From: Capnocytophaga haemolytica | Lineage (GTDB): Bacteria; Bacteroidota; Bacteroidia; Flavobacteriales; Flavobacteriaceae | Assembly: GCF_001553545.1 (NCBI RefSeq) | Contig: NZ_CP014227.1 | Span: 711,501-775,500, forward strand | Length of the DNA: 64,000 bases | Direction: 5' to 3' | Shown: one piece after another, positions 1,515 through 62,549 of the stretch | Layout: each line of letters begins with the position of its first letter | Position numbering within the stretch: the first letter of the stretch is position 1 | Notes under the pieces: model-generated | What the model was told of the DNA's origin: nothing | The model's input: the letters and a program-made list of their open reading frames with translations, nothing else | The model's database searches: none | Position numbers and translations under genes: made by a program

Positions 1515-2396
1515 ATGGTTATATTATTTTTTGCACACGGAGCGAAGGAGTTTCTCAATGAGGTGATATTTGCCGTGCTTTCTTACTATCAGCATCATAG
1601 GGTAGGGGAGCACCAAGTGGTGATTTACACCGACAATGAGGCGTACTTTAGGCAATGGCTGCCTGAGGAGGTTACTTATGTAGCCGTAGATGCTGCTAAG
1701 GTGCGTGAGTGGCGAGGAGCAATCGACTTTGTGCACCGCGTGAAGATAGAGATGATACGCGATGCTTTTACGCGCTTCCCCGATCGCAATGTGTTATACC
1801 TCGATAGCGATGTCTACTTTAAGGAGAATATCTCCTTTTTGGGTGATAAAATCGTACAGGGCACTCCTGTGATGAGTTTAGACGAAGGGAGTGTCTTTGG
1901 CAGTAAGCTAAGGCATTTCAAAAAGATAGAAGTCTACCTAAAGGCGCACAACAACACGATTGGCACTGGGCCACCTGTGGTAGTTCCTCAAGGACAATCG
2001 ATGTATAATGCAGGGGTACTTGGCATTAGGGCTGATTGGGCACCATTGCTCAGCGAGGTGCTTGCCATCACCGACCTACTGCACCCCGAGGCTCCTACCC
2101 ACGTGAGCGAGCAGTTTGCCTTCAGCGTGGTGCTTGCCCGCCAAGGGGCGATCTATGCTGCTGAGCCTCATATCCATCATTATTGGTATTTTAAAGAGTT
2201 TCGTGCGGTGATTAACGCCTTCTTGCAAGAGAACGAAGGCAAGCCTTTTGAGGAATTAGTGCGACTCTCGGCAGCCTACAATCCTGAGCGTATGGGCAGT
2301 GAGAAACTCGCTTATAAGCAGATGAATTTCTGGCAGAAGTTGTACTATAAAATAAAAAATAGAGGTCAGAAGTCAGTGATCAGCGGTCAGCTCTGA
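1515..2396 (+). CDS. glycosyltransferase with DxD motif
   Basis: A predicted soluble GT-A fold transferase of 293 residues. The metal/nucleotide-binding DSD in NVLYLDSDVYF is near residue 98. MYNAGVLGIRAD and HVSEQFAFS resemble the acceptor-side segments of family 8-like enzymes. I chose the ATG at 1515. A TTG at 1509 is in frame but directly abuts the epimerase stop codon. The last codons (from about 2361) are made of GTCAG-type heptanucleotides of the repeat element that continues to 2421, so the tail RGQKSVISGQL is probably repeat-derived and the natural stop may have been further upstream. Donor and acceptor unknown. Confidence 0.75.
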   Translation: MVILFFAHGAKEFLNEVIFAVLSYYQHHRVGEHQVVIYTDNEAYFRQWLPEEVTYVAVDAAKVREWRGAIDFVHRVKIEMIRDAFTRFPDRNVLYLDSDVYFKENISFLGDKIVQGTPVMSLDEGSVFGSKLRHFKKIEVYLKAHNNTIGTGPPVVVPQGQSMYNAGVLGIRADWAPLLSEVLAITDLLHPEAPTHVSEQFAFSVVLARQGAIYAAEPHIHHYWYFKEFRAVINAFLQENEGKPFEELVRLSAAYNPERMGSEKLAYKQMNFWQKLYYKIKNRGQKSVISGQL

Positions 2397-2421
2397 CTAC
2401 TGACTACTAATTACTAAATAC
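2361..2421. repeat. heptanucleotide element ahead of the GH92 gene
   Basis: Period-7 words run GTCAG-type on the left (AGGTCAG, AAGTCAG, TGATCAG, CGGTCAG) and CTGAC-type on the right (TGACTAC twice, then TAATTAC and TAAATAC), so the halves are partly inverted. The element crosses the glycosyltransferase stop codon and ends 3 bases before the next ATG. Confidence 0.75.
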
Positions 2422-2423
2422 GT

Positions 2424-4791: not shown

Positions 4792-4797
4792 CCCCCG

Positions 4798-4837: not shown

Positions 4838-4853
4838 CTAAAAAACAAGGAAG

Positions 4854-11924: not shown

Positions 11925-14069
11925 ATGAACACAATAAAAGTATTAGCAGTAGTGGCAATCGGTGCTTTGGCAGTGCTGGCGTGCCGCAATGAAGGTAAAA
12001 AGACTATGGAAAACACAAATATACAGCCCCCAGTGGCAAAGCGCGTGCCGCATACTCTTGAGAAGTTTGGCACTAAGCGCGTAGACGACTATTTTTGGCT
12101 CAACAATAGGGAAGATCCAGCGGTGATCGCCTACCTCGAGGCAGAAAATGCGTATTATGAGGCGGAAACTGCTCATACAAAGGGCTTGCAGGACGCTCTC
12201 TTTAAGGAAATGAAGGCACGCATTAAGGAGGACGACAGCTCGGTGCCCTATTTCTACAACGGCTATTGGTATATCACCCGTATGGAGCAGGACAAAGATT
12301 ACCCGATCTTCACTCGTCGCAAGGGCACGATGGAGGGAGCTGAGGAGGTACTTTTCGACTGCAATACTATGGCTGAGGGGCACGCTTATTTCGACTTGGG
12401 CGGCTTTGCTATCAGCGATGACAATAGGTGGGCAGTATTTGGTGTGGACACCGTATCACGTAGGCAATATACGCTGAGGGTGAAGGACTTGCAGACGGGT
12501 GAGATACTCGCCGATGCCATAAAGAACACGACAGGCAGCGGGGTGTGGGCAGCTGACAATAAGACGATTTTCTACACCCAAAAGAACCCGCAAACGCTGC
12601 GGTCGGACAAGGTGTATCGCCACGAGCGCGGCACGGCAGCTAAGGGCGATGTGCTCGTATTTGATGAGAAGGACGATACTTTCTATGCGCACGTCTACCG
12701 TGAGAAATCCAAAAAGTATATAGTGATTACCTCCGAGAGCACGATGACCACTGAGTGTCAGATATTGCGCTCAGACAACCCCAAAGGTAAGTTTAAAGTA
12801 TTCCAAAAGCGCGAACGCGGCTTGGAGTATGAGATTTCACATTACGGCGATCATTTCTATATCGTAACCAACAAGGATGGGGCTACGAACTTCAAGCTGA
12901 TGCGTACCCCTGAGACGGCAACCGGCAAAAGCCATTGGACGGAGGTGATACCGCACCGCAAAGATGTGAGGCTCAATGATATAGAGATATTTAAGAACTA
13001 CTTGGTGGTTGAGGAGACATACCAAGGGCTGGATCGCATCCATATACGTCCGTGGAGTGGAGGCGAGGGCTACTATCTGCCTTTTGAGAGTGAAACCTAC
13101 ACCGCCTATACCACAGGCAATGTGGACTTCGATACTGACAAACTGCGCTATAGCTATCAATCAATGATAACGCCTGCGTCTGTGATTGAGTTTGATATGG
13201 CGACCAAGGAAAAGAAAGTGCTCAAAGAGCAGGAAGTGCTCGGCGGTAAGTTCAATAAAGATAATTACGTAGAGGAACGCCTATGGGCAACCGCACAGGA
13301 CGGCACCAAAGTGCCGATGTCGGTGGTGTATCGCAAGGGCTTGAAGAAAGACGGTAAGAACCCGTTGCTCTTGTACGGCTATGGGTCGTACGGGGAGACG
13401 ATTAGTCCGTATTTTTCCACCTCGCGACTGAGCCTTTTAGACCGTGGCTTTGTGTATGTAATTGCCCATATACGCGGTGGGGAATACCTTGGGAGACAGT
13501 GGTATGAGGACGGTAAGTTGCTCAAAAAGAAGAACACGTTTACTGACTTTATCGACTGCTCGAAATACCTGATTGCACAAAAGTATACCTCACCTGAGTA
13601 TCTTTTTGCAGAAGGCGGCTCAGCAGGCGGACTCTTGATGGGGGCAGTGGTGAATATGGCTCCGCAGCTCTACAAAGGGGTGATTGCCCAAGTGCCTTTT
13701 GTAGATGTGGTAACCACGATGCTCGATGAGAGTATCCCGCTGACCACAGGCGAATATGACGAGTGGGGCAACCCTAATGAGAAGGTATATTTCGACTATA
13801 TGCTGTCGTACTCGCCCTACGACCAAGTGAAGGCGCAAGCGTATCCGAATATGTACGTCTCCACAGGCTTGCACGACTCGCAGGTGCAGTATTGGGAGCC
13901 CGCCAAGTGGGTAGCCAAACTGCGCGCTGTAAAAACCGACAATAATAAACTCTACTTAGACACCAATATGGATGCAGGACACGGCGGGGCTTCAGGGCGT
14001 TTTGAGGCACTGAAAGAGGTGGCTAAAGAGTACGCGTTTATGCTGGATTTGTTGGGAGTTAAGAATTAG
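11925..14069 (+). CDS. ptrB: oligopeptidase B (S9A family), lipoprotein
   Basis: A serine oligopeptidase that cleaves short peptides, in this subfamily usually after Arg or Lys. The N-terminus MNTIKVLAVVAIGALAVLAC has a lipobox, so it is probably a periplasmic or outer-membrane lipoprotein. A seven-bladed propeller (about 70-430) precedes the alpha/beta-hydrolase domain. The triad is S566 in GGSAGG, D651 in GLHDSQV and H686 in DAGHGGASGRFE. The ending EYAFMLDLLGVKN is the oligopeptidase B type. A near-copy of the last 30 or so bases recurs at 14857-14889 behind the next gene, a mark of rearrangement. Confidence 0.9.
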   Translation: MNTIKVLAVVAIGALAVLACRNEGKKTMENTNIQPPVAKRVPHTLEKFGTKRVDDYFWLNNREDPAVIAYLEAENAYYEAETAHTKGLQDALFKEMKARIKEDDSSVPYFYNGYWYITRMEQDKDYPIFTRRKGTMEGAEEVLFDCNTMAEGHAYFDLGGFAISDDNRWAVFGVDTVSRRQYTLRVKDLQTGEILADAIKNTTGSGVWAADNKTIFYTQKNPQTLRSDKVYRHERGTAAKGDVLVFDEKDDTFYAHVYREKSKKYIVITSESTMTTECQILRSDNPKGKFKVFQKRERGLEYEISHYGDHFYIVTNKDGATNFKLMRTPETATGKSHWTEVIPHRKDVRLNDIEIFKNYLVVEETYQGLDRIHIRPWSGGEGYYLPFESETYTAYTTGNVDFDTDKLRYSYQSMITPASVIEFDMATKEKKVLKEQEVLGGKFNKDNYVEERLWATAQDGTKVPMSVVYRKGLKKDGKNPLLLYGYGSYGETISPYFSTSRLSLLDRGFVYVIAHIRGGEYLGRQWYEDGKLLKKKNTFTDFIDCSKYLIAQKYTSPEYLFAEGGSAGGLLMGAVVNMAPQLYKGVIAQVPFVDVVTTMLDESIPLTTGEYDEWGNPNEKVYFDYMLSYSPYDQVKAQAYPNMYVSTGLHDSQVQYWEPAKWVAKLRAVKTDNNKLYLDTNMDAGHGGASGRFEALKEVAKEYAFMLDLLGVKN

Positions 14070-14099
14070 TGGATAATGTATAACGCATAGTGTATAGTT
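14070..14099. repeat. short heptanucleotide run
   Basis: ATAATGT, ATAACGC, ATAGTGT, ATAGTTA: four period-7 words between ptrB and the next ATG. Confidence 0.55.
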
Positions 14100-14690: not shown

Positions 14691-14712
14691 AAAAATAAGA
14701 GATATAATAAAA

Positions 14713-14892
14713 ATGTTATCAGAACAAGGAGTAATACGAAGGGAGAAGTTAGCGCGCTTGCGCGAGATGGGTATTAACCCTTATCTAGCGGATTTGTTCC
14801 CTGTGAATTTTACGGCAGCTCAGGTGGAGCCCGAGTATGAGGAAGGCAAGAAGTATGCGTTTATGCTGGATTTGTTGGGGGTTAAGAAGTAA
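14713..14892 (+). pseudogene. chimeric scrap: lysS 5' end joined to ptrB 3' end
   Basis: A 59-codon open frame. Codons 1-46 (MLSEQGVIRREKLARLREM to YEEGK) repeat the first 46 residues of LysS, encoded in full at 18291-19976 on the other strand, with few substitutions. Codons 47-59 (KYAFMLDLLGVKK) repeat the last residues of PtrB. The join is in frame. It cannot be a working enzyme. A 59-residue peptide could in principle be made. Best explained as a recombination product. Confidence 0.85.
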
Positions 14893-14923
14893 GAATTAGG
14901 GAATAAGGAATAAATAATCATAG

Positions 14924-18232: not shown

Positions 18233-18233
18233 A

Positions 18234-19976: not shown

Positions 19977-20021
19977 TTTTATTCTATACTTCTAATCAAC
20001 TAATTACCAATAATTCTTTTA

Positions 20022-25727: not shown

Positions 25728-25775
25728 TTTTTAGGGATTAGCTTTTAGCTTTTAGGGCTAACCCCTTAGGTGATT
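25728..25775. repeat. heptanucleotide run
   Basis: TTTTTAG, GGATTAG, CTTTTAG, CTTTTAG, GGCTAAC, CCCTTAG: period-7 words just upstream of the aminotransferase. The rest of 25719-26095 is gene-free. It also has three near-repeats of GGGTTCAC (about 25820-25850) and the promoter at 25978. Confidence 0.65.
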
Positions 25776-26008: not shown

Positions 26009-26078
26009 TAGTTTGAAAATCAATATACCAAACAATATGGATTACTCGGGTGCAAAGGTACGACTTTTTTGGAAATAC

Positions 26079-26106
26079 GAAATGAGAAATGAGAAATGAG
26101 AAATGG
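26079..26106. repeat. (GAAATGA)n heptads
   Basis: Three to four near-perfect copies of GAAATGA. The start codon of the following fragment lies within them, so repeat-number changes would shift reading frames here. Confidence 0.7.
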
Positions 26107-26536
26107 GAAGCCTTTAGAAGGGATTTTTGTCTCTAATGGTAGGGAAGTGGTGTGTACCAATGCAAAAGGATTCTACAAGATACAGGCCTACCAATGGGAT
26201 ATCCTCCTCTATTATGGGGAAAGTCCCGTGAAAGATATGAAACTTGATACCAATTGTAACCCTATCATTGAGAATACACAAATACAGAAAATTGATGTTG
26301 TGATGGAAGATTATTCAGAGAATATGTATTTTGAAAAGAATGAAATGTGTGGGATATTGTTTATCCTCAATGGAAAATTGGTAACAGATAAAGCGGTAGA
26401 GGAGACAAAACAACGCCTCCGCAACGATAAAACCTTAAAATATACCCTTCTCAATAGTCAGCAGCTCTACAAAAAGTATGGATATAGAGCTACTTATGGC
26501 TTAGAAATCTCTACCCAACCCCAAGCAGAAGGTTAG
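26096..26536 (+). pseudogene. fragment of a carboxypeptidase-regulatory-like / plug-type protein
   Basis: A 146-codon frame without signal peptide. Its start NGKPLEGIFVSNGREVVCTNAKGFYKI-like segment (shown in two halves) fits a beta-sandwich repeat of the CarboxypepD_reg or metallophosphatase N-terminal type, normally found just after a signal peptide. The second half (LNGKLVTDKAVEETKQRL, QLYKKYGYRATYGLEI) resembles a degenerate TonB plug segment. The natural N-terminus appears replaced by heptads, so I read it as a 5'-truncated remnant. It could still be translated from the promoter-like site upstream. Confidence 0.5.
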
Positions 26537-26604
26537 AAGCAATTGATGAGAAGTGAGCTTGCTACTCATTACTCATTGCTCATTACTCATTGCTCATTAC
26601 AAAC
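26528..26604. repeat. heptanucleotide element (ATTACTC/ATTGCTC)
   Basis: A left arm GATGAGA, AGTGAG is followed by CTACTC, ATTACTC, ATTGCTC, ATTACTC, ATTGCTC, ATTAC. The arms are inverted relative to each other. It ends at the stop of the transporter remnant. Confidence 0.7.
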
Positions 26605-26777: not shown

Positions 26778-27059
26778 ATTTGCTAATTCTCTAATTTTTC
26801 TTCCTCTTTCTTTCGCCTCGAAACCCCGTTTTTAACATTTTTTGCTCTGTTGTATTATATTATGAGTCAATCACTTATATACCCTTTCTATACCAATCGT
26901 CCAAGATTCGTATAAGCTTCCTATAAGCTCTCTATAAGCTAACCCCACCCATCTTACACCCTTTTTTCATCAAAAACCCTACTTCCCCTCTTTTGAATTT
27001 CTCCGTTTCCTTCCGAACACTCCTAACAGTCTCAACACATCGCTTTTTCATCTCAAACT

Positions 27060-30746: not shown

Positions 30747-30833
30747 TTAATGAGCAGAGAGCAGAGAGTAAATTGCTAACGCGCCGAACTCATTACTCAT
30801 TACTCGCTACTCATTACTCTCTGCTCTTTTTTT
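30747..30833. repeat. inverted heptanucleotide element with core (copy A)
   Basis: Left arm of AATGAGC/AGAGAGC words (30747-30769), core AAATTGCTAACGCGCCG (30770-30786), right arm of ACTCATT/ACTCTCT words (30787-30826). GAGCAGAGAG (30752-30761) pairs perfectly with CTCTCTGCTC (30817-30826), followed by seven T, so it could also terminate + strand transcripts. The copy at 59001-59075 has the same core in reverse. Confidence 0.85.
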
Positions 30834-32942: not shown

Positions 32943-32992
32943 CAAAGGTACTACTTTTTAATGGATAATGGATAATTTACAATGAATAATTT
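32943..32992 (-). promoter_or_regulatory. promoter box with adjoining heptads ahead of DinB
   Basis: TACCTTTG on the minus strand at 32943-32950. Upstream, where the -33 box should be, period-7 words run ATGGATA, ATGGATA, ATTTACA, ATGAATA (about 32960-32992). Confidence 0.55.
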
Positions 32993-35834: not shown

Positions 35835-35880
35835 CAAAGGTAGTACTTTTTTAATGAATAATGCACAATGCATAATTTCT
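35835..35880 (-). promoter_or_regulatory. promoter box and heptads ahead of DUF5682
   Basis: TACCTTTG on the minus strand at 35835-35842. Immediately upstream are period-7 words AATGAAT, AATGCAC, AATGCAT, AATTTCT (about 35853-35880). Confidence 0.55.
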
Positions 35881-45400: not shown

Positions 45401-46281
45401 ACCTCCTCTCTGGTGGTTGGACGGACGACAAGCATTGCAACGACCTTATCGACGATTTGATTCACAACTACAAGATTAAGTTCAACGACCTGCAAGGGGC
45501 AATGCGCCGCGAGAAGTTTACCATCTCCGTTGGGGACGAGCTGCCTGCGGGTATCTTGAAGCTGGCGAAGATATACATCGCTAAGAAGCGTAAACTCAAG
45601 GTAGGGGACAAGATGGCGGGTCGCCACGGTAACAAAGGTATCGTAGCGCGTATCGTTCGTGATGAGGATATGCCATTCCTCGAAGATGGAACCCCTGTGG
45701 ACATCGTGCTGAACCCGCTCGGGGTGCCATCGCGTATGAACATTGGGCAGATCTACGAGACCGTCCTCGGATGGGCAGGACAAAAGCTCGGACAGAAGTA
45801 CGCAACGCCTATTTTCGACGGGGCGAGCCTTGAGCAAATCAACGAGCTCACCGATAAGGCGGGCGTACCGCGTTTTGGTCACACCTACCTCTACGATGGA
45901 GGCACAGGCGAGCGTTTTGACCAGAAGGCTACCGTTGGGGTGATCTATATGATCAAGCTCGGACATATGATCGACGACAAGATGCACGCGCGTTCCATTG
46001 GTCCGTACTCGCTCATCACGCAGCAACCGCTCGGTGGTAAGGCGCAGTTCGGGGGTCAGCGTTTTGGTGAGATGGAAGTGTGGGCTCTGGAAGCCTACGG
46101 CGCATCGAGCACCTTGCGCGAGATCTTAACGGTGAAGTCCGACGACGTAATCGGTAGGGCGAAGACGTATGAAGCCATCGTAAAAGGTGAGGCAATGCCC
46201 GAACCAGGATTGCCAGAGTCGTTCAACGTCCTCTTGCACGAGCTCAAGGGATTGGGCTTGGACGTACGCTTAGAAGAGTAG
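42478..46281 (+). CDS. rpoB: DNA-directed RNA polymerase subunit beta
   Basis: Beta subunit of RNA polymerase, 1267 residues. The rifampicin-binding cluster near residues 463-500 reads [20 protein letters not shown] then RLSALGPGG, with the usual D, H and S at the positions altered in resistant mutants, so it looks drug-sensitive. The C-terminal clamp segments ([35 protein letters not shown]) are intact. It is followed not by rpoC but by a terminator-like hairpin and a 4.7 kb block of other genes. Confidence 0.98.
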
Positions 46282-46303
46282 AGGTTTTAGGGTTTATAGC
46301 AGG

Positions 46304-46349
46304 AAGTCAGGAGACTTCTACACAATAGGAGCTCCTGACTTTCTATTTT
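46304..46349 (+). terminator. terminator-like hairpin directly after rpoB
   Basis: AAGTCAGGAG (46304-46313) pairs perfectly with CTCCTGACTT (46332-46341), 18-base loop, then TCTATTTTA. If it works it would cut rpoC off from the upstream operon promoter. Confidence 0.6.
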
Positions 46350-46375
46350 ATGGCAGCTTTCAGGTGCAGTCCCCA

Positions 46376-46475
46376 GCAGAGGGAGCGAGATACCCCGCTG
46401 GCGGTACGCAGTTCATTCATCATTAACCACTAACCCCTAATCGCTAACCACTAACCCCTAATCATTAATAAAAAG
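46376..46475. repeat. heptanucleotide element ahead of the first nitroreductase
   Basis: A core CCCCGCTGGCGGTACGCAGT (about 46393-46412) is followed by period-7 words CATTAAC, CACTAAC, CCCTAAT, CGCTAAC, CACTAAC, CCCTAAT, CATTAAT up to the AAAAAG before the ATG. The second nitroreductase has the same arrangement. Confidence 0.75.
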
Positions 46476-47201
46476 ATGAACAGTTTAAAGGAAATATTAG
46501 AATTTAGAAGAGCAGTGCGCTCGTTTTCCGACCAGCCGATTGATGCGGAGGTCGTAAAGCAATGCGCCGAGGAGGCAATGCTCGCCCCAACAGCCTATGG
46601 GGTACAGCTTTATGAGATGTATCACATTACTAATAAAGACCTTTTAAAGAAAATGGCTCACGCGTGCCTTGATCAGTCCTCTGCGACTACCGCTCAGCAG
46701 TTTGTGGTTTTCGTAACAAGACAAGATCTCTACAAAGAGCGTGCAGCGTATCTTCTTAAACAGCAAGTGGAGAATGTAAAGCGTAATAGTCCTGCTGAAA
46801 AACAGGCAAGTCACATCAAATACCACGAAGAAGTTTACAAAAAGATTGTTCCGCTCCTTTATATGCGCTTCTTTGGGTTGATGGGAGCCTTCCGTTATCT
46901 CCTAAGTTCCGTATCGGGCTTGTTTAAACCCACCTATCGACAGATGACGGAAAACGATATGCGTATTGATGTACATAAGAACTGTGCTTTGGCAGCCGAG
47001 ACCTTTATGCTCTCGATGGCGGAAAAGGGTTACGACACCTGTCCGATGACAGGAATTGACAGTTTGCGGGTAAAAAGGCTATTGAAACTCCCTTATAGTG
47101 CCGAAATCAATATGGTGATAAGTTGTGGTATCCGTTCCGAACGGGGGCTTTATGGTGAGAGAGTTCGTATTCCAAGTGAGAAACTATACAAACGGATTTA
47201 A
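46476..47201 (+). CDS. nitroreductase family protein (copy 1)
   Basis: A 241-residue FMN-dependent oxidoreductase. RRAVRSFSDQPID (11-23) contains the FMN-phosphate-binding arginines, CAEEAMLAPTAYGVQLYEMY follows, and AAETFMLSMAEKGYDTCPM lies in the second half. The ending RVRIPSEKLYKRI is where the C-terminal arm closes over the flavin. Substrate unknown (quinones, nitro-compounds or other). It lies between rpoB and rpoC and is followed by a paralogue 115 bases on. The first about 110 bases of the two genes are nearly identical. Confidence 0.88.
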   Translation: MNSLKEILEFRRAVRSFSDQPIDAEVVKQCAEEAMLAPTAYGVQLYEMYHITNKDLLKKMAHACLDQSSATTAQQFVVFVTRQDLYKERAAYLLKQQVENVKRNSPAEKQASHIKYHEEVYKKIVPLLYMRFFGLMGAFRYLLSSVSGLFKPTYRQMTENDMRIDVHKNCALAAETFMLSMAEKGYDTCPMTGIDSLRVKRLLKLPYSAEINMVISCGIRSERGLYGERVRIPSEKLYKRI

Positions 47202-47315
47202 GTGCATAGTTCATAATGTATAATGTATAATGCACAATAAATAATGTATAGTTCCCCGCTGTCGGCACGCAATTCTCTAACAACTAACAACTAACCCCTA
47301 ACCACTAATAAAAAG
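47202..47315. repeat. heptanucleotide element between the nitroreductases
   Basis: Left arm AGTGCAT, AGTTCAT, AATGTAT, AATGTAT, AATGCAC, AATAAAT, AATGTAT. Core CCCCGCTGTCGGCACGCAAT (about 47254-47273). Right arm ACAACTA, ACAACTA, ACCCCTA, ACCACTA. Period 7 throughout. The core matches the one before copy 1 in all but a few bases. Confidence 0.8.
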
Positions 47316-48041
47316 ATGAACAGTTTAAAGGAAATATTAGAATTTAGAAGAGCAGTGCGCCACTATTCCGACCAGCCGATCGATGCGGAGGTCGTAAAGC
47401 AATGTGCCGAGGAGGCAGTGCTCGCACCGACGAGCTCTAATATGCAGCTCTATGAGATGTATCACATCGTAAATAAGCAGCTGCTTGCCCAGATGGTGCC
47501 CGCGTGCCTCGATCAGGAGTCGGTGGAAACCGCCGAGCAGCTTGTGGTGTTCGTAACCCGACAGGATAAATACAAAGAGCACTGCAAGGCATTGTTAGCC
47601 GCAGAAGTGGAAAACGTAAGGCGCAACTCGCCACCGAAAAAGCAAGAGAAGCGCATCAAACGATGGGAACAGTACTACGGAAAGTTTCTTCCGTTTGTCT
47701 ATGCGAGGGCTTTTGGCTTCTTGGGGTGGCTGCGTAAAGGCTTAGCCCTCGGGGTGAGCCTCTTCCGCCCAATGATGACCCAAGTATCTGAGGGAGATAT
47801 CCGCGTAGTGGTACACAAGAGCTGCGCACTGGTAGCCCAGACCTTTATGTTGGCAATGGCGGAAAAGGGTTACGACACCTGTCCGCTTGAGGGCTTCGAT
47901 GCGCGCCGCGTGCGAAAGTTACTGAACCTGCCCTACGGCACAGAAATCAATATGGTGATAAGCTGTGGCATCCGTGAGGATAAAGGGGTCTGGGGCGATA
48001 GGGTAAGGCTCCCCATAGAAGAGCTATATAAACGAGTTTGA
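47316..48041 (+). CDS. nitroreductase family protein (copy 2)
   Basis: A paralogue of the preceding gene, same length (241). It starts identically (MNSLKEILEFRRAVR) but diverges downstream (APTSSNMQLYEMYHIVNKQL, AKALALGVSL-like middle), then reconverges at MAEKGYDTCP and EINMVISCGIR. GC content is higher than in copy 1. Identity concentrated at the 5' end and in the leader suggests tandem duplication with later gene conversion or selection. FMN-binding arginines are retained. No promoter box seen. Confidence 0.88.
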   Translation: MNSLKEILEFRRAVRHYSDQPIDAEVVKQCAEEAVLAPTSSNMQLYEMYHIVNKQLLAQMVPACLDQESVETAEQLVVFVTRQDKYKEHCKALLAAEVENVRRNSPPKKQEKRIKRWEQYYGKFLPFVYARAFGFLGWLRKGLALGVSLFRPMMTQVSEGDIRVVVHKSCALVAQTFMLAMAEKGYDTCPLEGFDARRVRKLLNLPYGTEINMVISCGIREDKGVWGDRVRLPIEELYKRV

Positions 48042-48120
48042 GTGTATAGTGAATAGTGCACAGTGTATAGTGAATAGTGTACAGTGTATAGTGCATAGTT
48101 TATAATGTATAGTTCTCAGT
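48042..48120. repeat. heptanucleotide run after the second nitroreductase
   Basis: Eleven period-7 words of AGTGTAT, AGTGAAT, AGTGCAC, AGTGTAC, AGTGCAT, AGTTTAT and AATGTAT type, ending in AGTTCTCAGT. The stretch 48121-48320 carries several minus-strand TACTTTTG/TACTTTTA words but no gene I can support. Confidence 0.75.
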
Positions 48121-48324
48121 AAAGGAAGCGAGAGTACCCCAAAAGGAAGTCCTGTGATCGGTTTCCCCTCTCCTTTGAAGGAAGTGGCGCACTGCGACAG
48201 TATGTGAGACGGGAGAGGATGTTACCAAATGAAGTGATTGCACTCCCAAAAGTACAAAATTTATCATATTTTGATATAAAAGTAACCCGTTTTTAGGTAA
48301 AAGTACCACAAAAACACACAAAAG

Positions 48325-48478
48325 TACCTCTGAGCAACGCAAGAGTACCTTCGAGCAACGCAAGAGTACCTTTGAGCAATGCAAGAGTACCTTCGAGCAA
48401 CGCAAGAGTACCTTTGAGCAATGCAAAAGTACCTCTGAGCAACGCAAGAGTACCTTTGAGCAAACCACCGTTCCTTTG
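48325..48478. repeat. 21-bp tandem repeat carrying -7 promoter boxes
   Basis: Seven copies begin at 48332, 48353, 48374, 48395, 48416, 48437 and 48458, consensus GAGCAACGCAAGAGTACCTTT. Exact + strand boxes TACCTTTG occur at 48367-48374, 48409-48416 and 48451-48458. The intervening copies have TACCTTCG or TACCTCTG. The unit is three heptads long. The downstream gene starts at 48548. Confidence 0.9.
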
Positions 48479-48547
48479 TAGCAAGACAAAAGTAACCTAC
48501 AAATGAACAAAAGTAATGAATAATTAAACATATAAATTAAAAATACA

Positions 48548-49201
48548 ATGGGAAAACGTTTTTCACAAGCACAGATCATTCAGGATTACGGTAAGTTGTT
48601 TACCAATGCAAAAGAGAACACCACGCTGGCAAAGGAGCTCGCCGAATATGGATACGATGAGGCTGCAATGACAGCGGGCAAAGCCCTTTATGATAAAGCC
48701 GTTGAGCTATATAAAGCCAACGTGAAAGATACGCAGGACGAGACCTCTGCCTATGCGACTTTCAGTAAGAAATTAGAAGAGCTTGACAAGGTGTATGTAG
48801 CCGACCGCAAAAAGGCGCGCATCATCTTTAAGGGGCAAAGTGATACGCTCAAGAATTTAAAACTCACAGGCAAGCCCTCTCGTGCTATCGCCCACGCTTT
48901 GGACGAGATGAAAACCCTCTACGAGACCCTCGAGCGCGATGCAGCACTTGCCAAACCCCTCGAGCGACTGAAAATCGATGCGGCGCACATCAAGGCGCAG
49001 CTCGATGCCATCGCCGAAGCCGAAAAAGCCTACACCGTTTACCAAAATGAGAAAGGCGAAAGTCAGCAGGCTACAAAGAACAAGGATAAGGCTTTCGAAG
49101 CTCTTGAAAAATGGGTGCGCGAGTTCTTTTCCATAGCGAAGATCGCCCTTGAGGATCAGCCGCAACTCCTCGAGAGCTTGACCTTAATCGTAAAAGGATA
49201 A
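48548..49201 (+). CDS. helical protein, unrecognised
   Basis: A 217-residue cytoplasmic protein, almost entirely alpha-helical and lysine/glutamate/alanine-rich: MGKRFSQAQIIQDYGKLFTN, then KALYDKAVELYKANVKDT, LEELDKVYVADRKKARII, and a C-terminal WVREFFSIAKIALEDQPQLL. It looks like a helical bundle and vaguely recalls the DUF6261-type proteins of Bacteroidota, but I cannot confirm this. It is preceded by the 21-bp repeat with promoter boxes and followed after 14 bases by an SRPBCC gene. Its last codons are repeated 525 bases downstream. Confidence 0.65.
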   Translation: MGKRFSQAQIIQDYGKLFTNAKENTTLAKELAEYGYDEAAMTAGKALYDKAVELYKANVKDTQDETSAYATFSKKLEELDKVYVADRKKARIIFKGQSDTLKNLKLTGKPSRAIAHALDEMKTLYETLERDAALAKPLERLKIDAAHIKAQLDAIAEAEKAYTVYQNEKGESQQATKNKDKAFEALEKWVREFFSIAKIALEDQPQLLESLTLIVKG

Positions 49202-49734
49202 CAAACACCGAGAAAATGAAAAAGATAGGTATCATCGCAATGCTGTGTATCATCATTCTGCTGGTGATACACCAAAGTATGGCAAAGGAAATTCGTACAG
49301 AAATCACCATCAACGCCCCAGCGGAGAAGGTTTGGCAGGTGCTTACCGACTTCGGGGCGTATCCAACGTGGAACCCTTATATTGTAAAGATGGAAGGCAC
49401 GCTTGTAGAGGGCGAACGGATGCAAGCGACTCTGGCGCGCCCCGATGGCACTACCTCAACGCTCAATCCGAAGGTCAGGGAGCTGAAAGTAGGCGAGCGT
49501 ATCGTAATGCGCAAACAGGTGCTGGGCGGGATTATCGTGGGTGCGAACCATATTTTTGAGGTAAAGAGCAATCCTGATGGGAGTACCACCTTTGTGCAGG
49601 CGATGACCTTCAATGGATTTGCGACCTACAAATTTGATACCGAGATGCTCAAAAAGCAATTCGAGGCGATGAATAGAGCACTCAAAAGCAGAGTAGAAGC
49701 ATTGTAGGTAAATCGTAAAAGGATAACAAACACC
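49186..49734. repeat. 24-bp direct repeats flanking the SRPBCC gene
   Basis: AATCGTAAAAGGATAACAAA plus CACC occurs at 49186-49209, where it encodes the last residues and stop of the upstream gene, and again unchanged at 49711-49734 in the gap after the SRPBCC gene. Confidence 0.9.
49216..49707 (+). CDS. SRPBCC (START-like) protein with N-terminal membrane segment
   Basis: A 163-residue protein. An N-terminal hydrophobic segment (MKKIGIIAMLCIIILLVIHQ) anchors or exports it. The rest is a polyketide-cyclase/SRPBCC fold: IRTEITINAPAEKVWQVLTD, FGAYPTWNPYIVKMEG and a C-terminal long helix (EMLKKQFEAMNRALKSRVEA). Such proteins bind hydrophobic ligands, and the ligand is unknown here. Precisely bracketed by a duplicated 24-base sequence, it looks like an inserted gene cassette. 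Confidence 0.82.
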   Translation: MKKIGIIAMLCIIILLVIHQSMAKEIRTEITINAPAEKVWQVLTDFGAYPTWNPYIVKMEGTLVEGERMQATLARPDGTTSTLNPKVRELKVGERIVMRKQVLGGIIVGANHIFEVKSNPDGSTTFVQAMTFNGFATYKFDTEMLKKQFEAMNRALKSRVEAL

Positions 49735-49750
49735 AAAATAACAACCGACT

Positions 49751-50824
49751 ATGAAAAAGTTCATAACATTAGTAGCAGCATTTGCCCTTGTGGCTTGCGG
49801 AAAGGACAGCAACGGAGGCGGCGGGGATGACCCGATCGACCCAAATGTGGTGTACAAAACCTCGGGCGACCTTTTCGGAAAGAACTATGTGGCAAAGGGG
49901 ACCGTTTTTACGCGAAGGGTAGACAAAGAAATGCCTCTCGCGCCTAATTCAGCAGCGATTGCAGCCAAAATGAAATCGCTGGCAAAGAATCCTTCTGGGG
50001 TGATCACTACCATTACACGTCAGCACTATAATTACACCATAATTATAGTAGATAGTAACGATAAGAACCAGCATTATGCTAATTTTATCCCCGAAGGACA
50101 CCGTGAGCGAGACGATGCAGACCTCTATAAATACACGGGAGGGCGTCAGCCTATCGTGCACGATGCCAAGCCCGCCGCAGGGAACGATGCGCATATGGCG
50201 GTGTACGACGTGGCAACGGGAGTGATGCGTCAGTACTTCGGAGTAACGTATGTGAACAGCGGGGAGTACAAGTTTAAAGGCTCGGGCTACTTCATTGCCA
50301 AGCCAGGCTTGCGAGGGCTCGCTAAGGACAACTATTGGATGCAGCTTACCAAAGGCGGTAGCTCGGTAGTGGGGATGCTCAACCCGCTTTCGCAGATCGG
50401 TATCGAGGAAGTGAGGGCAGGGGAGATCAATCACGCCCTATCGTTCACCATAGCACAAGCCCGTAAAGGCTATTCGTGGCCTGCGAGGGCTGGCGATGGC
50501 AATCTGGACGATGCCGACGCCCCAATGGAAGGGCAATGGTGCCGTATCGACCCGAAAGTGGACTTGGATAAACTGAATTTGCACCCTATTACCCTGATGA
50601 TTGCCAAGGCGGTACAGAAATACGGGGCTTATGCCGCAGATAAGAACCTATTCTGCCACACTTTCACCACTGAGCACGGCATTTATGAGCTTGCGATGCA
50701 CGGGTTAGACCCTTGGGAACACGATGGAGAGTTCGAGAAGAAGTACGGCAAGTTCGATAACATCAACGACTTCCCTTGGGAGCTCACACAATGGGCACCT
50801 GTCGATTGGGGGAAGCCGAAATAG
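49751..50824 (+). CDS. lipoprotein, uncharacterised secreted family
   Basis: A 357-residue lipoprotein. The signal MKKFITLVAAFALVAC has a lipobox. The Cys is followed by a Gly/Asp linker (GKDSNGGGGDDPIDP) that may favour surface export. The mature part contains EINHALSFTIAQARKGYSWP and APMEGQWCRIDP, reminiscent of a secreted family I have seen in actinobacteria where a HAL-type motif precedes VWPA. I cannot name it or give a function. Last gene before the rpoC leader. Confidence 0.6.
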   Translation: MKKFITLVAAFALVACGKDSNGGGGDDPIDPNVVYKTSGDLFGKNYVAKGTVFTRRVDKEMPLAPNSAAIAAKMKSLAKNPSGVITTITRQHYNYTIIIVDSNDKNQHYANFIPEGHRERDDADLYKYTGGRQPIVHDAKPAAGNDAHMAVYDVATGVMRQYFGVTYVNSGEYKFKGSGYFIAKPGLRGLAKDNYWMQLTKGGSSVVGMLNPLSQIGIEEVRAGEINHALSFTIAQARKGYSWPARAGDGNLDDADAPMEGQWCRIDPKVDLDKLNLHPITLMIAKAVQKYGAYAADKNLFCHTFTTEHGIYELAMHGLDPWEHDGEFEKKYGKFDNINDFPWELTQWAPVDWGKPK

Positions 50825-50985
50825 AGAGAAGAGAATAGAGAGTAAAGAGAAATCAGAGATCAGGAATGAGAGATCAGAGATCAGGAATGGGAAACAATAC
50901 TCTGCTTTCTGACCTCTGATCACTGATCACTGACCACTAATCACTGATCACTGACCCCTGACCACTAAATACTAAAAATAAACTA
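50825..50985. repeat. long heptanucleotide element forming the rpoC leader
   Basis: Left arm of AGAGAAT, AGAGAGT, AATCAGA, GATCAGG, AATGAGA, GATCAGA, GATCAGG words. Right arm TCTGACC, TCTGATC, ACTGATC, ACTGACC, ACTAATC, ACTGATC, ACTGACC, CCTGACC, ACTAAAT. GATCAGAGATCAG (50872-50884) is complementary to CTGACCTCTGATC (50909-50921) with one mismatch. No TAnnTTTG box occurs between here and rpoC. Confidence 0.85.
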
Positions 50986-51013
50986 AAATTAATTCATTAT
51001 ACACCATAAATCA

Positions 51014-54000
51014 ATGGCAAGAGAAAGAGTTACACCTGTTACAAAATTTGATAAGATTTCAATAGGCTTAGCGTCTCCTGAGTCGATCCTTGCGGTATCG
51101 CGTGGAGAGGTGTTGAAGCCTGAAACTATCAACTATCGCACGCATAAGCCTGAGCGTGATGGTTTGTTTTGCGAGCGTATCTTCGGTCCGGTAAAGGATT
51201 ACGAGTGCGCCTGCGGAAAGTACAAGCGCATCCGCTATAAGGGCATCGTTTGCGACCGTTGTGGGGTTGAAGTAACGGAAAAGAAAGTGCGTCGCGAACG
51301 CGTGGGGCACATCAACCTTGTGGTGCCTATCGCACATATATGGTATTTCCGTTCGCTGCCCAACAAGATCGGTTATTTGCTCGGGCTGCCTTCTAAAAAG
51401 CTCGATATGATCATCTATTACGAGCGATATGTAGTCATTCAGCCAGGGCTGGCTAAGGCACCCGATGGCTCGGACTTGCAATACCTCGACTTCCTCTCTG
51501 AAGAGGAATACGTGGAGATCGTAGAACGCCTTCCGCAAGATAACCAATACCTCGAGGACAACGACCCTAATAAGTTCGTCGCTAAAATGGGTGCTGAGTG
51601 CCTCTTGGAGCTCCTCGAACGCCTTGATTTGGACGCGCTCTCTTACGAATTGCGCCATAAGGCAAACAACGAGAGCTCAAAGCAACGCAAAACCGAAGCC
51701 CTGAAACGCTTGCAGGTAGTGGAGGCTTTCCGCGAATCAAAGAAGCACCGCGAAAACAAGCCCGAGTGGATGATTATGAAGGTCATCCCTGTTATTCCGC
51801 CTGAGTTGCGTCCCTTGGTGCCCCTCGATGGTGGGCGTTTTGCCACTTCGGACTTGAACGACCTCTACCGTCGCGTGATTATCCGCAACAATCGCCTTAA
51901 AAGATTGATGGAGATCAAAGCTCCTGAGGTAATCCTCCGCAATGAGAAGCGTATGTTGCAAGAATCAGTGGATTCGCTCTTTGATAACACCCGTAAGTCG
52001 TCGGCAGTGAAGACCGAGTCGAACCGTCCGCTCAAGTCGCTTTCTGACTCATTGAAGGGTAAGCAAGGGCGTTTCCGTCAGAACCTCTTAGGGAAACGTG
52101 TGGACTACTCGGCGCGTTCGGTGATCGTGGTAGGACCTGAACTGAAACTCTACGAATGCGGTCTGCCAAAGAATATGGCAGCCGAGCTATACAAACCATT
52201 TGTGATCCGCAAGCTCATCGAGCGCGGTATCGTAAAGACGGTGAAGTCGGCAAAGAAAATCATTGATAAGAAAGAGCCTGTGGTATGGGATATCCTTGAA
52301 AACGTCATCAAGGGACACCCCGTGCTGCTCAACCGTGCCCCTACGTTGCACCGTTTGGGTATCCAAGCCTTCCAGCCTAAGCTGATAGAGGGTAAGGCGA
52401 TCCAATTGCACCCATTGGTGTGTACGGCGTTCAATGCGGACTTCGATGGCGACCAGATGGCGGTGCACTTGCCCCTCGGTCCTGAAGCGATCTTAGAGGC
52501 GCAACTGCTGATGCTCGCATCGCACAATATATTAAACCCTGCGAACGGATCGCCAATTACGGTGCCTTCACAGGATATGGTCTTGGGGCTGTATTACATC
52601 ACCAAGTCGCGCAAATCGACCCCTGAGTACCCTGTTTTGGGCGAAGGACAATCCTTCTACTCCAATGAGGAAGTGAATATCGCCTACAATGAAGGGCGAT
52701 TGAGCCTCAATGCAGAGATCAACGTACGAGTGCGCGACCTCGATGAGAACGGTAACGTGATATACCACTTGGTGAAAACCACCACAGGGCGCGTGCTCTT
52801 CAACGAGCTCGTTCCGCTGGAAGTGGGCTACGTCAATGAAGTGCTTACCAAGAAATCGCTCCGTGATATTATCGGGCGTATCCTCAAAGCAACCTCAATA
52901 CCCACTACGGCGGACTTCCTCGACAAGATTAAGAACCTCGGGTATAAGTTCGCCTTCAAAGGGGGACTCTCGTTCAGCCTTGGGGACATTATTATCCCTC
53001 AGGAGAAACAAGATATGATCGCTGAGGCAAACGGATTGGTAGAGGGGATTATGATGAACTATAATATGGGGCTCATCACCAACAACGAGCGATACAATCA
53101 GGTGATCGATGTTTGGACATCGACCAATGCGCAACTCACCGAGCTGGCGATGAAACGCATCAGCGGCGACCAGCAAGGCTTCAACTCCGTATATATGATG
53201 CTCGACTCAGGGGCGCGTGGTTCTAAGGAACAGATACGCCAGCTGACAGGTATGCGTGGGCTGATGGCAAAGCCTAAGAAATCAACAGCAGGTGGTGGGG
53301 AAATCATCGAGAACCCTATCCTCTCTAACTTTAAGGAAGGGCTGTCGATTTTGGAATACTTCATCTCTACGCACGGGGCTCGTAAGGGGTTAGCGGATAC
53401 TGCCCTCAAGACAGCGGACGCGGGTTACCTCACACGCCGTTTGGTAGACGTATCGCAAGACGTGATTATCAACACTGAGGATTGCGGCACCCTCCGCGGC
53501 GTAGAAGTACGCGCCTTGAAGAAGAATGAAGAGGTGGTGGAAACCCTCGGTGAGCGTATCCTTGGGCGTGTATCGCTCCACGATGTGTACAACCCACTCA
53601 CCGAAGAGCTGTTAGTAGCTGCGGGAGAAGAAATCACCGAAAAGATAGTAGATAAAATCGATGCGGCACCGATAGAGATGGTAGAAGTACGCTCGGCACT
53701 TACCTGCGAAGCCAAACACGGTATCTGCGCGAAGTGCTACGGACGTAACCTCTCAACAGGACGTATGGTGCAGACAGGCGAAGCCGTTGGGGTAGTAGCT
53801 GCACAGTCCATCGGGGAGCCTGGTACACAGCTGACACTCCGTACCTTCCACGCGGGAGGGGTTGCGGGTAACGTCTCAGAAGAGAACAAGACCGAAGCAC
53901 GCTTCGATGGTATTTTGGACATCGAAGACCTGCGTGTAGTACGAGGAAAAGACAACGAACAGAACCCAGTAGACGTGGTGGTTCGTTCCTCAGAGCTCAA

Positions 54001-57571: not shown

Positions 57572-57585
57572 CGCCCTGAAATTGA

Positions 57586-57690
57586 GTCAGAAGTCAGAGA
57601 TCAGGAAACAGTGAACAGAGGTCAGAACTCAGGGCTCAGCAACTGACCTCTGCTCACTAACCCCTAATCCCTAATCACTAACCCCTAAAA
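57586..57690. repeat. heptanucleotide element forming the rimO leader
   Basis: Left arm GTCAG-type (AAGTCAG, AGATCAG, AGGTCAG, AACTCAG, GGCTCAG). Right arm CTGACCT, CTGCTCA, CTAACCC, CTAATCC, CTAATCA, CTAACCC. CAGAGGTCAG (57616-57625) pairs perfectly with CTGACCTCTG (57643-57652). It lies wholly inside the transcript. Confidence 0.85.
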
Positions 57691-57697: not shown

Positions 57698-59011
57698 ATG
57701 CGTACCAAATCAATTAAACAGAACGTTATCAATGTGGTAACCTTGGGTTGCTCGAAAAATGTATATGACAGTGAGGTGCTGGCAGGGCAACTCAAAGGCA
57801 GTGGCAAGAAGGTGGTGCACGAGCAGCAGGGTAACATCGTGGTGATCAACACCTGTGGCTTTATTGGCAGTGCCAAAGAGGAGAGCGTGAACACGATCCT
57901 CGACTATGTGCATCGCAAGGAGCGCGGTCAGGTAGACAAGGTGTTCGTAATGGGCTGCCTCAGTGAGCGGTATAAGCCTGATTTAGAGAAGGAAATTCCC
58001 GATGTAGACCAATATTTCGGCACCAGCGAGCTGCCCCAATTGCTCAAGGTGCTGGGGGCGGACTACAAGCACGAACTCATTGGTGAGCGACTGACGACCA
58101 CGCCCAAGAATTACGCCTACTTGAAGATCGCCGAGGGCTGCGACCGTCCGTGTAGTTTTTGTGCCATTCCGCTGATGCGCGGCAGCCATAAGTCCACCCC
58201 CATTGAGGATTTGGTGCGCGAGGCTGAGGGCTTAGCAGCTAAGGGTGTCAAAGAGCTGATACTCATCGCGCAAGACCTTACCTACTACGGGTTAGACCTC
58301 TATGGGGCACGCCGCCTAGCGGATCTGCTCAGGGCGTTAGCAAAGGTGGAAGGCATTGAGTGGATACGCCTGCATTATGCCTTCCCGACAGGCTTCCCGA
58401 TGGACGTTTTAGAGGTGATGAAAACCGAGCCGAAGATCTGTAAGTACTTGGATATTCCGCTACAACACATCTCGGATAAGATTTTAAAGAGTATGAAGCG
58501 CGGTACTACGCAGGCAAAGACGACTAAGCTGCTCAAAACCTTCCGCGAAGCGTTGCCCGAGATGGCTATTCGCACTACGCTTATCGTGGGTTACCCTGGG
58601 GAGACGGGGGAGGATTTTGAGGCACTGAAAGCCTTTGTAAAGGAAATGCGCTTCGACCGCCTCGGTTGTTTTACGTATAGCCACGAGGAGGATACAGCGG
58701 CTTATGTCTTGGCGGACGATGTGCCTGAGGAGGTGAAGATGGCGCGCGCCAATGCCATTATGGAGTTGCAAGGGCAGATTTCGTGGGAGCTCAATCAGCA
58801 GAAAGTAGGTAAGGTTTTCCGCTGCCTGATTGATAGAAAAGAGGGTAATTACTTCGTTGGGCGTACTGAGTACGACTCGCCTGATGTGGATAATGAGGTG
58901 CTGATTGATGCACGTAAGCACTATGTGAAGATAGGCGATTTTGCCCACATAAAGATTACCGAAGCTGCTGATTATGATCTCTATGGAGAACCGGTCCTTA
59001 ATGATGAGTAG
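57698..59011 (+). CDS. rimO: ribosomal protein S12 methylthiotransferase RimO
   Basis: A radical-SAM enzyme that methylthiolates the conserved aspartate of ribosomal protein S12. The UPF0004 domain has the first cluster cysteines in TLGCSKN, INTCGF and VMGCLSER. The radical-SAM cluster is C148, C152 and C155 in GCDRPCSFC. A C-terminal TRAM domain follows (GKVFRCLIDRKEGNYFVGRT). Length 437 is normal. The final codons and stop lie within the left arm of the next repeat element. Confidence 0.96.
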   Translation: MRTKSIKQNVINVVTLGCSKNVYDSEVLAGQLKGSGKKVVHEQQGNIVVINTCGFIGSAKEESVNTILDYVHRKERGQVDKVFVMGCLSERYKPDLEKEIPDVDQYFGTSELPQLLKVLGADYKHELIGERLTTTPKNYAYLKIAEGCDRPCSFCAIPLMRGSHKSTPIEDLVREAEGLAAKGVKELILIAQDLTYYGLDLYGARRLADLLRALAKVEGIEWIRLHYAFPTGFPMDVLEVMKTEPKICKYLDIPLQHISDKILKSMKRGTTQAKTTKLLKTFREALPEMAIRTTLIVGYPGETGEDFEALKAFVKEMRFDRLGCFTYSHEEDTAAYVLADDVPEEVKMARANAIMELQGQISWELNQQKVGKVFRCLIDRKEGNYFVGRTEYDSPDVDNEVLIDARKHYVKIGDFAHIKITEAADYDLYGEPVLNDE

Positions 59012-59075
59012 AGAGTAATGAGTACGGTGCGTTAGCAATTTACTCTCTGCTCTCTACTCTCTGCTCATTAAACTA
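59001..59075. repeat. inverted heptanucleotide element with core (copy B)
   Basis: Left arm GATGAGT, AGAGAGT, AATGAGT. Core CGGTGCGTTAGCAATTT (59025-59041). Right arm ACTCTCT, GCTCTCT, ACTCTCT, GCTCATT. GAGTAGAGAG (59006-59015) pairs perfectly with CTCTCTACTC (59050-59059). Its reverse complement aligns with copy A at 30747 through both arms and the core. Confidence 0.88.
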
Positions 59076-60219: not shown

Positions 60220-60289
60220 TAAATTTTGTAAATAGAATTTAGTCTTTGGAACGATTTTTGCGGGAAGAGAAAATGACAAATTTGGTAAG

Positions 60290-60964: not shown

Positions 60965-61015
60965 AGCAAGAAGAGAGTTTCCATAATCTTCAAAGATTAA
61001 ATTTACCATTTTTCT

Positions 61016-61046
61016 TTTGTACTTTAATAGAAAAAGTGTATCTTTG
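61016..61046 (+). promoter_or_regulatory. promoter of the antiporter gene
   Basis: Exact consensus: TTTG (61016-61019), 19 bases, TATCTTTG (61039-61046). The leader of about 70 bases ends in heptads. Confidence 0.85.
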
Positions 61047-61087
61047 CGCCAAAATAATGATTAGAGAAGAGAGATGCTTATTTCAAG

Positions 61088-61119
61088 GCTCTAGCTACTA
61101 ACCTCTGATCTCTAAATAT
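61088..61119. repeat. short heptanucleotide run in the antiporter leader
   Basis: CTAGCTA, CTAACCT, CTGATCT, CTAAATA, immediately before the ATG at 61122 and downstream of the promoter. Confidence 0.65.
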
Positions 61120-61121
61120 TT

Positions 61122-62444
61122 ATGGAATTATACTACGCTTTTTCGGGGATTATAGTGCTGGCGGCACTTTTCTCGTATGTGAATGTCAGGTATGTAAAGT
61201 TGCCGATGACCATAGGGATTATGGTGATCGCAATGCTCGTTTCGGTAGGGGTACATCTCTTTGGAGAGGTGATTTTCCCTGGCTTGTCGCATAAATTGGA
61301 GAGCCTTATTGGTAGCATTGACTTCACCGAGATACTGATGGGGGCGATGCTTAACTTCCTGCTTTTTGCAGGGGCACTACACATCAACTTCTCCGACCTG
61401 AAACAGCATAGGCGCGCGATATTCATTTACGCTACGGTGAGCGTGGTGCTTTCGGCGTTTTTTATTTCGTTGTTGCTTTACTACGTGTCGCCTTACTTGG
61501 GATTTGCGATTCCCTACCCCTATTGTTTGCTCTTTGGGGCACTCATCTCACCCACCGACCCGATTGTAGTAATGGGGGTACTCAAGCAGGCTAAGGTGCC
61601 CAAGCGTTTGGAAATGAAGATTACAGGTGAGTCGCTCTTTAACGATGGGGTAGCGGTAGTGCTCTTTGCAGTAGTGCTTAAGATTGCCACAGGTGTAGAT
61701 GATTTCACTCCTTCTTTTGCCTCTATCACCAAGCTCTTCTTGATAGAAGCTGGCGGTGGAGTTTTCTTAGGGGGATTGCTCGGATGGGTAGCCTCAAAGA
61801 TGATGCACAAGGCAAATGACTATCACGTGAATGTACTCATCACCTTGGCAGTGGTGATGGGGGGCTTCCTCATAGCAAAGGGTTCACACGTGTCCTCACC
61901 TCTAGCGATGGTGGTAGCGGGGCTTTTCATTGGTAATAGCAATAAGAAGTCTGACAATGAGGTGGCAAAAGATTACTTAGGAAAGTTTTGGGAGATTATT
62001 GATGAAATTATGAATGCGGTACTCTTCCTCTTTATAGGGTTTGAGTTATTGATATTGAAAGGCTTAGAAGACCAATTGTTGCTGGGTTGCTTGGCGATAT
62101 TGGTATGCCTCATCGGGCGAGCGTTAGCGATATACATTCCTGCAAAAACCGTTTTAAAGCGCACTACAACCTACTCAAGAGGATCGCTCATTACGATGGT
62201 GTGGGGAGGTGTGCGCGGAGGGGTATCCATAGCCTTAGTGCTCTCTATACCTTACCACGAAGCAGGGCATATCAAAGAGGTGCTGGTACAGATTACCTAC
62301 ATCGTGGTAGTCTTCTCAATATTGGTACAAGGATTAACCGTGGGTCGTGTAGCCAAAAAAGCACTACGTGCCGATGAACTAATGCCAAGGCTTAAGCGGA
62401 TACGAGCCGCGAGAAGTAAGAACAAGCAGAATAACCACGAGTAG
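61122..62444 (+). CDS. sodium/proton antiporter, CPA1 (NhaP-type)
   Basis: A 440-residue inner-membrane antiporter with about 12 helices. ALISPTDPIVVMGVLKQAKV and GESLFNDGVAVVLFAVVL are the unwound-helix and acidic-pair signatures of CPA1 exchangers. VWGGVRGGVSIALVLSIP is the conserved arginine helix. Probably exports Na+ (or K+/Li+) in exchange for H+ for pH and salt homeostasis. Single gene with a consensus promoter. Confidence 0.93.
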   Translation: MELYYAFSGIIVLAALFSYVNVRYVKLPMTIGIMVIAMLVSVGVHLFGEVIFPGLSHKLESLIGSIDFTEILMGAMLNFLLFAGALHINFSDLKQHRRAIFIYATVSVVLSAFFISLLLYYVSPYLGFAIPYPYCLLFGALISPTDPIVVMGVLKQAKVPKRLEMKITGESLFNDGVAVVLFAVVLKIATGVDDFTPSFASITKLFLIEAGGGVFLGGLLGWVASKMMHKANDYHVNVLITLAVVMGGFLIAKGSHVSSPLAMVVAGLFIGNSNKKSDNEVAKDYLGKFWEIIDEIMNAVLFLFIGFELLILKGLEDQLLLGCLAILVCLIGRALAIYIPAKTVLKRTTTYSRGSLITMVWGGVRGGVSIALVLSIPYHEAGHIKEVLVQITYIVVVFSILVQGLTVGRVAKKALRADELMPRLKRIRAARSKNKQNNHE

Positions 62445-62549
62445 GGAGTATGAAACTAAGTTTAGAGAAGGAAGAGCAAGGAGTGAATAGTTTTAGATAA
62501 CTTACTAATCACTATAACTGACCACTAACCACTAAGAAAGAAATTAAAG
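62445..62549. repeat. heptanucleotide element ahead of the acyltransferase
   Basis: The left part (GAGTAGG, GAGTATG ... AGGAGTG) is poorly periodic. The right part runs CTTACTA, ATCACTA, TAACTGA, CCACTAA, CCACTAA. No TAnnTTTG promoter was found in this gap. Confidence 0.6.

Follow-up and report, generated by a model that had tools for sequence, protein, structure and literature searches.

The STRR of cyanobacteria are dispersed heptanucleotide tandem repeats, and the arrays described here, likewise dispersed, tandem and built on seven nucleotides, resemble them in that general description. As set out in the parts of MacGregor 2015 (PMC4679880) drawn on here, TAACTGA heptamers occur in marine Beggiatoaceae, in cyanobacteria and in five Bacteroidetes, with other heptamer repeats beside them; the Beggiatoaceae repeats share with ours the period of seven, an intergenic location that is often just before start codons, the presence of other heptamers alongside and the differences between close relatives. 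That system, as described there, has one near-fixed word, whereas many degenerate words are found here, together with paired G/C arms, a hinge family and arrays after stop codons. Heterogeneous intergenic heptamers of the GGGAATC type are found in Xanthomonas and Nostoc; in the portion of Rehm 2015 (PMC4692102) used, they form 70 and 75 convergent inverted pairs and lie nearer the upstream ORF, and both the inverted pairing and the nearness to the upstream ORF are common to our arrays. The GGGAATC-type repeats belong to a different phylum and carry G-quadruplex-forming G3-4 runs that the words here mostly lack (by reading, the listed arrays show no shared run of at least three G in four successive units). 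In the trnL intron of Nostoc, excerpts of Kaasalainen 2015 (PMC4476775) describe degenerate heptamers of class I (TDNGATT) and class II (NNTGAGT) on both sides of the P6b stem, with gain and loss of units as here; the word AATGAGT in our arrays fits class II, but the Nostoc repeats sit inside one intron and ours are dispersed between genes. The (GATAGRA)n satellite of Chloroflexus, in the passages of Subirana (PMC6749651) used, also has a unit of seven at many sites, with a single unit sequence, unlike the arrays here. Heptamer arrays recur in unrelated bacteria; a suggestion of Mrazek et al., quoted in both PMC4679880 and PMC4692102, links the step of seven to how many nucleotides of DNA the polymerase contacts.

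The stretch analysed (the window) comprises 64,000 nucleotides of Capnocytophaga haemolytica, positions 711501-775500 of the single 2,688,484-bp contig of a 2.69-Mb genome, and together with 20 further stretches of 20 kb it makes up a sample of 464 kb. Arrays were scored by lag-7 runs with a strict cut-off of at least 11; cut-offs of at least 8 and at least 14 were also used. A sequence-only reading of the window had proposed words of period 7, specific to each site and placed between genes, and had named autocorrelation as the check; run on these data, the check bears the proposal out. In the window the lag-7 match of intergenic DNA is 0.321, whereas shuffled sequence gives 0.273 (z 11.6) and coding DNA 0.247; the intergenic match is likewise raised at lags 14, 21 and 28 (z 5.2, 8.4 and 4.1). 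Across the 464-kb sample the intergenic lag-7 z is 17.2, with harmonics, and the coding value is 0.253, the words not being a feature of coding DNA; removal of the arrays scoring at least 8 brings intergenic lag 7 down to 0.288, the level of lags 6, 8 and 9. At a score of at least 11 the sample holds 79 arrays, compared with 1, 0, 0, 0 and 0 in five first-order Markov simulations, and at a score of at least 8 it holds 122, compared with 8-17. Three of the 79 were counted within genes. The arrays span 2,946 bp, next to 66,093 bp of remaining intergenic sequence, and extrapolation by proportion would give about 450 arrays genome-wide. At a score of at least 14 there are 49 period-7 arrays, while every other period from 4 to 20 has at most two, with the exceptions of 11 (23 arrays) and the harmonic 14 (20). 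The period-7 intergenic feature is real and strongly supported.

The reading had listed 17 sites. Arrays scoring at least 11 are present at 13 of them (listed at 2361, 14886, 25728, 26079, 26528, 30747, 32957, 46376, 47202, 48042, 50825, 57586 and 59001), three are weaker (14070, score 7.5; 35853, 10.5; 62500, 9.5), and no array is found at 61088, even at a score of at least 6. The arrays of the window are as follows.

2361..2421, plus strand: both arms, G-rich then C-rich, ending 2 nt before the ATG at 2424 and overlapping the 3' end of the preceding called ORF (score 16.5, fold z -2.45)
14067..14098, plus strand: weak G-rich array filling a 30-nt intergenic gap (score 7.5, below the strict threshold)
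14883..14913, plus strand: short G-rich array upstream of the start at 14924 (score at least 11)
25738..25755, minus strand: short array; the minus-strand gene that ends at 25718 has its start 20 nt away (score 11.0)
26072..26109, minus strand: CATTTCT-type array beside a minus-strand promoter-like TACCTTTG (score at least 11)
26563..26600, plus strand: TACTCAT array after a stop codon (TRF, score at least 11)
30752..30827, no strand assigned: G-arm, hinge GCTAACGCGCCGA and C-arm, a member of the dispersed hinge family (fold z -3.1)
32959..32976, minus strand: short CATTATC-type array beside a promoter-like TACCTTTG (score 11.0)
35852..35876, minus strand: weak TAATGNN array (score 10.5)
46413..46469, plus strand: C-rich array before the first nitroreductase-like gene, with a 21-nt higher unit (TRF)
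47201..47308, plus strand: G-arm from a stop codon, unlike spacer, and C-arm before the second nitroreductase-like gene (score at least 11)
48041..48111, plus strand: G-rich array beginning at a stop codon (TRF, 10.4 copies)
50823..50976, plus strand: longest pair, with a G-arm from a stop codon, a spacer and a C-arm 37 nt before rpoC
57585..57688, plus strand: G-arm/C-arm hairpin between a promoter-like TATCTTTG and the rimO start (fold z -2.25)
59006..59066, plus strand: G-arm, hinge variant (reverse of GCTAACGCACCGTA) and C-arm, of the hinge family
62517..62535, plus strand: weak C-rich array before the next gene (score 9.5)

The words differ between sites but are not arbitrary. Read in register on their C-rich strands, the 79 arrays share one loose pattern, YNYTRWY (e.g., CACTAAC, CTCTGAC and CATTACT), with an information content at z 21 that none of 200 column-permuted sets reaches; this genome has many words under one loose pattern. 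Differences between neighbouring units are mostly transitions (250:198, where 161:287 is expected, in the 464-kb sample). Many arrays are paired: at a loose threshold, 25 of the 38 pairs of arms within 70 nt run G-rich then C-rich, the others being GG (5), CG (4) and CC (4), and in the 14 strict pairs the arms share words more than re-paired arms do (p 0.0044) and fold together better than with other arms (p 0.014). The proposal that complementary arms could form hairpins holds for five of six folded stretches, which beat shuffles at z -2.3 to -5.7 (z -5.65 for 50860-50990, the rpoC-upstream pair), but not for the lone C-rich arm at 46405-46480, which folds no better than its shuffles (z -0.5). 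The hinge GCTAACGCNCCGAA has eight exact copies in the genome and 17 with at most one mismatch, compared with three for the reversed pattern; seven of the eight exact copies sit between a G-rich and a C-rich arm, as do four of the nine one-mismatch places, the others not being so flanked. Among 19 other genomes of the genus, two have one match each. The hinge family is a set of dispersed near-identical hairpins, and it is the only part of the material with the near-identical dispersed core of small mobile repeats (MITE/SDR-like). Rfam gave no matches at gathering score in the window.

The assignment of the arrays to intergenic heptameric repeats of the STRR or heptameric-SSR kind is supported, and with it the likeness to STRR that had been drawn from the letters: the tandem unit is exactly 7 nt, the intergenic sites are many and dispersed, and unit number differs between relatives. 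New here are the degenerate vocabulary, the hinge-linked G/C arms and the dense occurrence in a further genus. The remark that no description existed for this lineage fails if the phylum was meant, given the TAACTGA arrays of five Bacteroidetes in the part of MacGregor 2015 (PMC4679880) cited above; literature searches found no description of such repeats naming Capnocytophaga.

Sequence comparisons show that the arrays change fast, with whole 7-bp units gained or lost and in-register words changing faster than their flanks. In two sister species (rpoC 94% alike), 17 arrays were tried, of which seven, at five orthologous places, align through and 10 do not, three of these lying outside the shared stretch. 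At three of the five places the two species are separated by length steps of 7, 14 and 28 bp (in each case leaving out of the count a single-base difference in a T run close by), in agreement with the earlier idea of growth by whole units; of the other two places, one is equal in length with changed words, and at the other a 56-bp indel obscures the comparison. The two copies of a duplicated leader (L002 15520-15668 and 16778-16926) give a gapless alignment, with no differences in the first 92 nt (72 coding) and 13 in the last 57 (p 1.5e-6). Two nitroreductase-like neighbours are identical from the last array units through the start and differ in unit numbers further up, and three paralogous genes carry unlike words just upstream. 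Before rimO, the last TTTG[CT] lies 126 nt from the ATG here, whereas 18 of 19 relatives have a spacing of 13-36 nt and the remaining one is arranged differently upstream, where it carries a short array itself; the 100-nt hairpin between promoter and start is absent from the 18 comparable relatives. In another three relatives, arrays precede the promoter-like site.

From 593 candidate stretches 80 named loci were retained, a set from which records of this same genome may be missing, and among them RpoC is closest to that of Flavobacteriaceae (83% identity). At a score of at least 14, array density per 100 kb is 10.6 in our own sample (49 in 464 kb), 4.1 in eight genus relatives (33 in 800 kb, range 0-8) and 1.0 in the 80 named Bacteroidota loci (17 in 1.62 Mb, every one between genes and one a poly-T tract). 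Arrays directly precede rpoC in five of the 80 loci, three from Chryseobacterium and one each from Epilithonimonas and Algibacter; their words do not resemble those found before rpoC here, and among genus relatives the vocabularies are species-specific. Our pattern fits 53 arrays from genus relatives (z 3.4, 0/300) and does not fit 34 arrays from outside the genus (z 0.6, 83/300); on these sequences YNYTRWY is weakly shared within the genus and not beyond it. An initial fit in which the other Bacteroidota seemed aligned (1/200 permuted sets as good) involved 17 arrays, including the poly-T tract. A universal CTRA-like word anchor across phyla was rejected on the out-of-genus misfit, and because the pattern fails there the universal-motif ideas (primase start sites, a branch-point-like motif) were dropped.

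We hypothesize, as the probable explanation, that the arrays are slippage-grown, hairpin-paired repeats of the STRR/heptameric-repeat kind. Slipped-strand pairing during replication would duplicate and delete units, fold-back pairing or template switching inside the hairpin would keep the two arms alike, and dispersed copies would have seeded many other arrays; such seeding would account for the YNYTRWY pattern common to sites of this genome whose words differ. Selection would spare arrays only in codon-free DNA, between a stop and the next start and near promoters, and would favour G-poor strands before starts. Most arrays may simply be tolerated, although some could act locally on a leader, for example the one of rimO. 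As essential genes, rimO and rpoC among them, have their leaders altered by arrays, the arrays are likely to cause some of the variation in expression from strain to strain. Slippage as the mechanism of unit change has the support of the comparisons above, as a reading of sequences. Counting against simple slippage, which should give many unit lengths, periods 4-6, 9, 10, 12 and 13 are nearly absent, and a four-base patch change in the duplicated leader counts against single-unit slippage. The two alignable places without a clean unit step, the 10 arrays that did not align through and a polarity that exceeds the background skew only in part also weigh against the explanation. The scarcity of neighbouring unit lengths fits a specific step, while period 11 here and period 8 in some relatives imply that seven is not the sole step allowed. 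With dense arrays, whole-unit differences between sister species and hairpin pairs, the growth step and the role of the arms are testable by strain comparison.

Position relative to genes bears on what else the arrays might do. The claim that most lie just before start codons stood for 25 of the 76 classified arrays, whose nearest gene edge within 30 nt is a start codon; for 30 it is a stop codon instead. On the gene strand, arrays near starts are C-rich in 20 cases, G-rich in 4 and tied in 1, and arrays near stops are G-rich in 25, C-rich in 4 and tied in 1. Array-free gaps share the same lean (91:54 before starts, 73:61 after stops), so that the arrays clearly exceed the background polarity after stops (p 0.0015), though not before starts (p 0.063); a test restricted to the 48 single arrays gives no significant polarity (p 0.18 and 0.12). 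For distances under 60 nt, stop-to-array distance is zero or negative in 24 of 43 cases, so arrays often begin at or within the end of a called gene, and array-to-start distance is 4-7 nt in 13 of 48. The array-to-start distances, the C-rich strand before starts and the common word pattern would suit regulatory sites at which an RNA-binding protein or the ribosome reads heptamer-spaced leader motifs, as MacGregor, in the parts of PMC4679880 used here, suggested for Beggiatoaceae TAACTGA with S1, Csp or Csr-like proteins. Such sites are rather unlikely: words differ between orthologous and paralogous sites, arrays are nearly as frequent after stops, the rimO array is missing in relatives, and the pattern fails in other Bacteroidota (z 0.6). 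Two further candidates were rejected. A general promoter role was considered, but TANNTTTG lies within 34 nt downstream in 9 of 77 C-rich strands against 6.8% expected, which shows no clear general array-promoter link (for CATTRT-type arrays the count is 4 of 10). By reading, the arrays do not look like intrinsic terminators, as G-rich arms come first and T runs rarely follow; two post-stop arrays precede a separate terminator-like hairpin.

When a heptamer that contains a stop codon is repeated, each 21 nt brings a stop into every one of the three frames, and the arrays might be three-frame stop cassettes that insulate cistrons or support termination and reinitiation. The group rarely uses Shine-Dalgarno sites. 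Sense-strand three-frame stops occur in 54% of 52 co-directional intergenic arrays, compared with 14% of matched array-free segments, and in 52% of 60 arrays, compared with 31% when columns are permuted (0/500); before starts the figures are 61% and 25% (0/500, n=31). We nevertheless consider this reading very unlikely. Nearly half of the arrays have no three-frame stops, the antisense strand is mildly enriched too (38% vs 29%, 14/500), the excess is weak after stops (57% vs 43%, 19/500), weaker in genus relatives (61% vs 44% column-permuted, 12/500) and absent outside the genus (48% vs 43%, 164/500), and ORF calling may favour stop-bearing gaps. The excess over column-permuted arrays, strongest just before starts, is also what leads to the equally doubtful idea that period 7 is kept since it is not divisible by 3, the arrays being self-growing translation insulators or termination-reinitiation pads between cistrons. 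Were the stop-codon excess functional, the arrays would be a self-renewing gene-boundary element.

It is likewise very unlikely that the arrays mark gain/loss junctions, as scars or hot spots where genes were inserted and deleted. In one sister species two genes have been inserted as a 2.3-kb block (L304:827-3132) that is flanked on both sides by heptamer arrays, and over 60 kb of this species 4 of 16 breakpoints fall near arrays where 0.75 are expected (p 0.005); arrays in our own genome also border genes that separate rpoB from rpoC. The second sister species, however, has 1 of 16 with 1.45 expected (p 0.78), and breakpoints in this small sample come in pairs. Chance or base composition, to which the three weak sites and the absent one might be credited, is already refuted by the Markov simulations (79 arrays against 0-1) and by coding DNA without the signal.

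Several neighbouring features were observed beside the arrays. In the window rpoB and rpoC are 4.7 kb apart (46281-51014), with two nitroreductase-like paralogues and three more genes between them; in two relatives they are only 80 bp apart. A separate intergenic class has period 11 (22, 33, 44), with 23 arrays at a score of at least 14 in our own sample (e.g., L003:19055-19199, L013:10608-10660, L010:6897-6937 and window 26897-26940), some of them within dispersed repeats of about 100-170 bp. The 44-nt stretch at window 26897-26940 is identical at six places in one relative (L185, L186, L187, L188), which suggests a shared mobile or conserved element. Period-8 arrays of the CTAATTNN type occur in some genus relatives (L185-L189, L211, L214, L218) and are nearly absent from our own sample. 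Upstream of the gene at 48548, window 48319-48494 is a 21-nt tandem repeat with a 63-nt higher order (CAAGAGTACCTTTGAGCAACG), and an inverted 149-bp repeat, 94% identical, lies at window 14702-14850 and 19839-19987.
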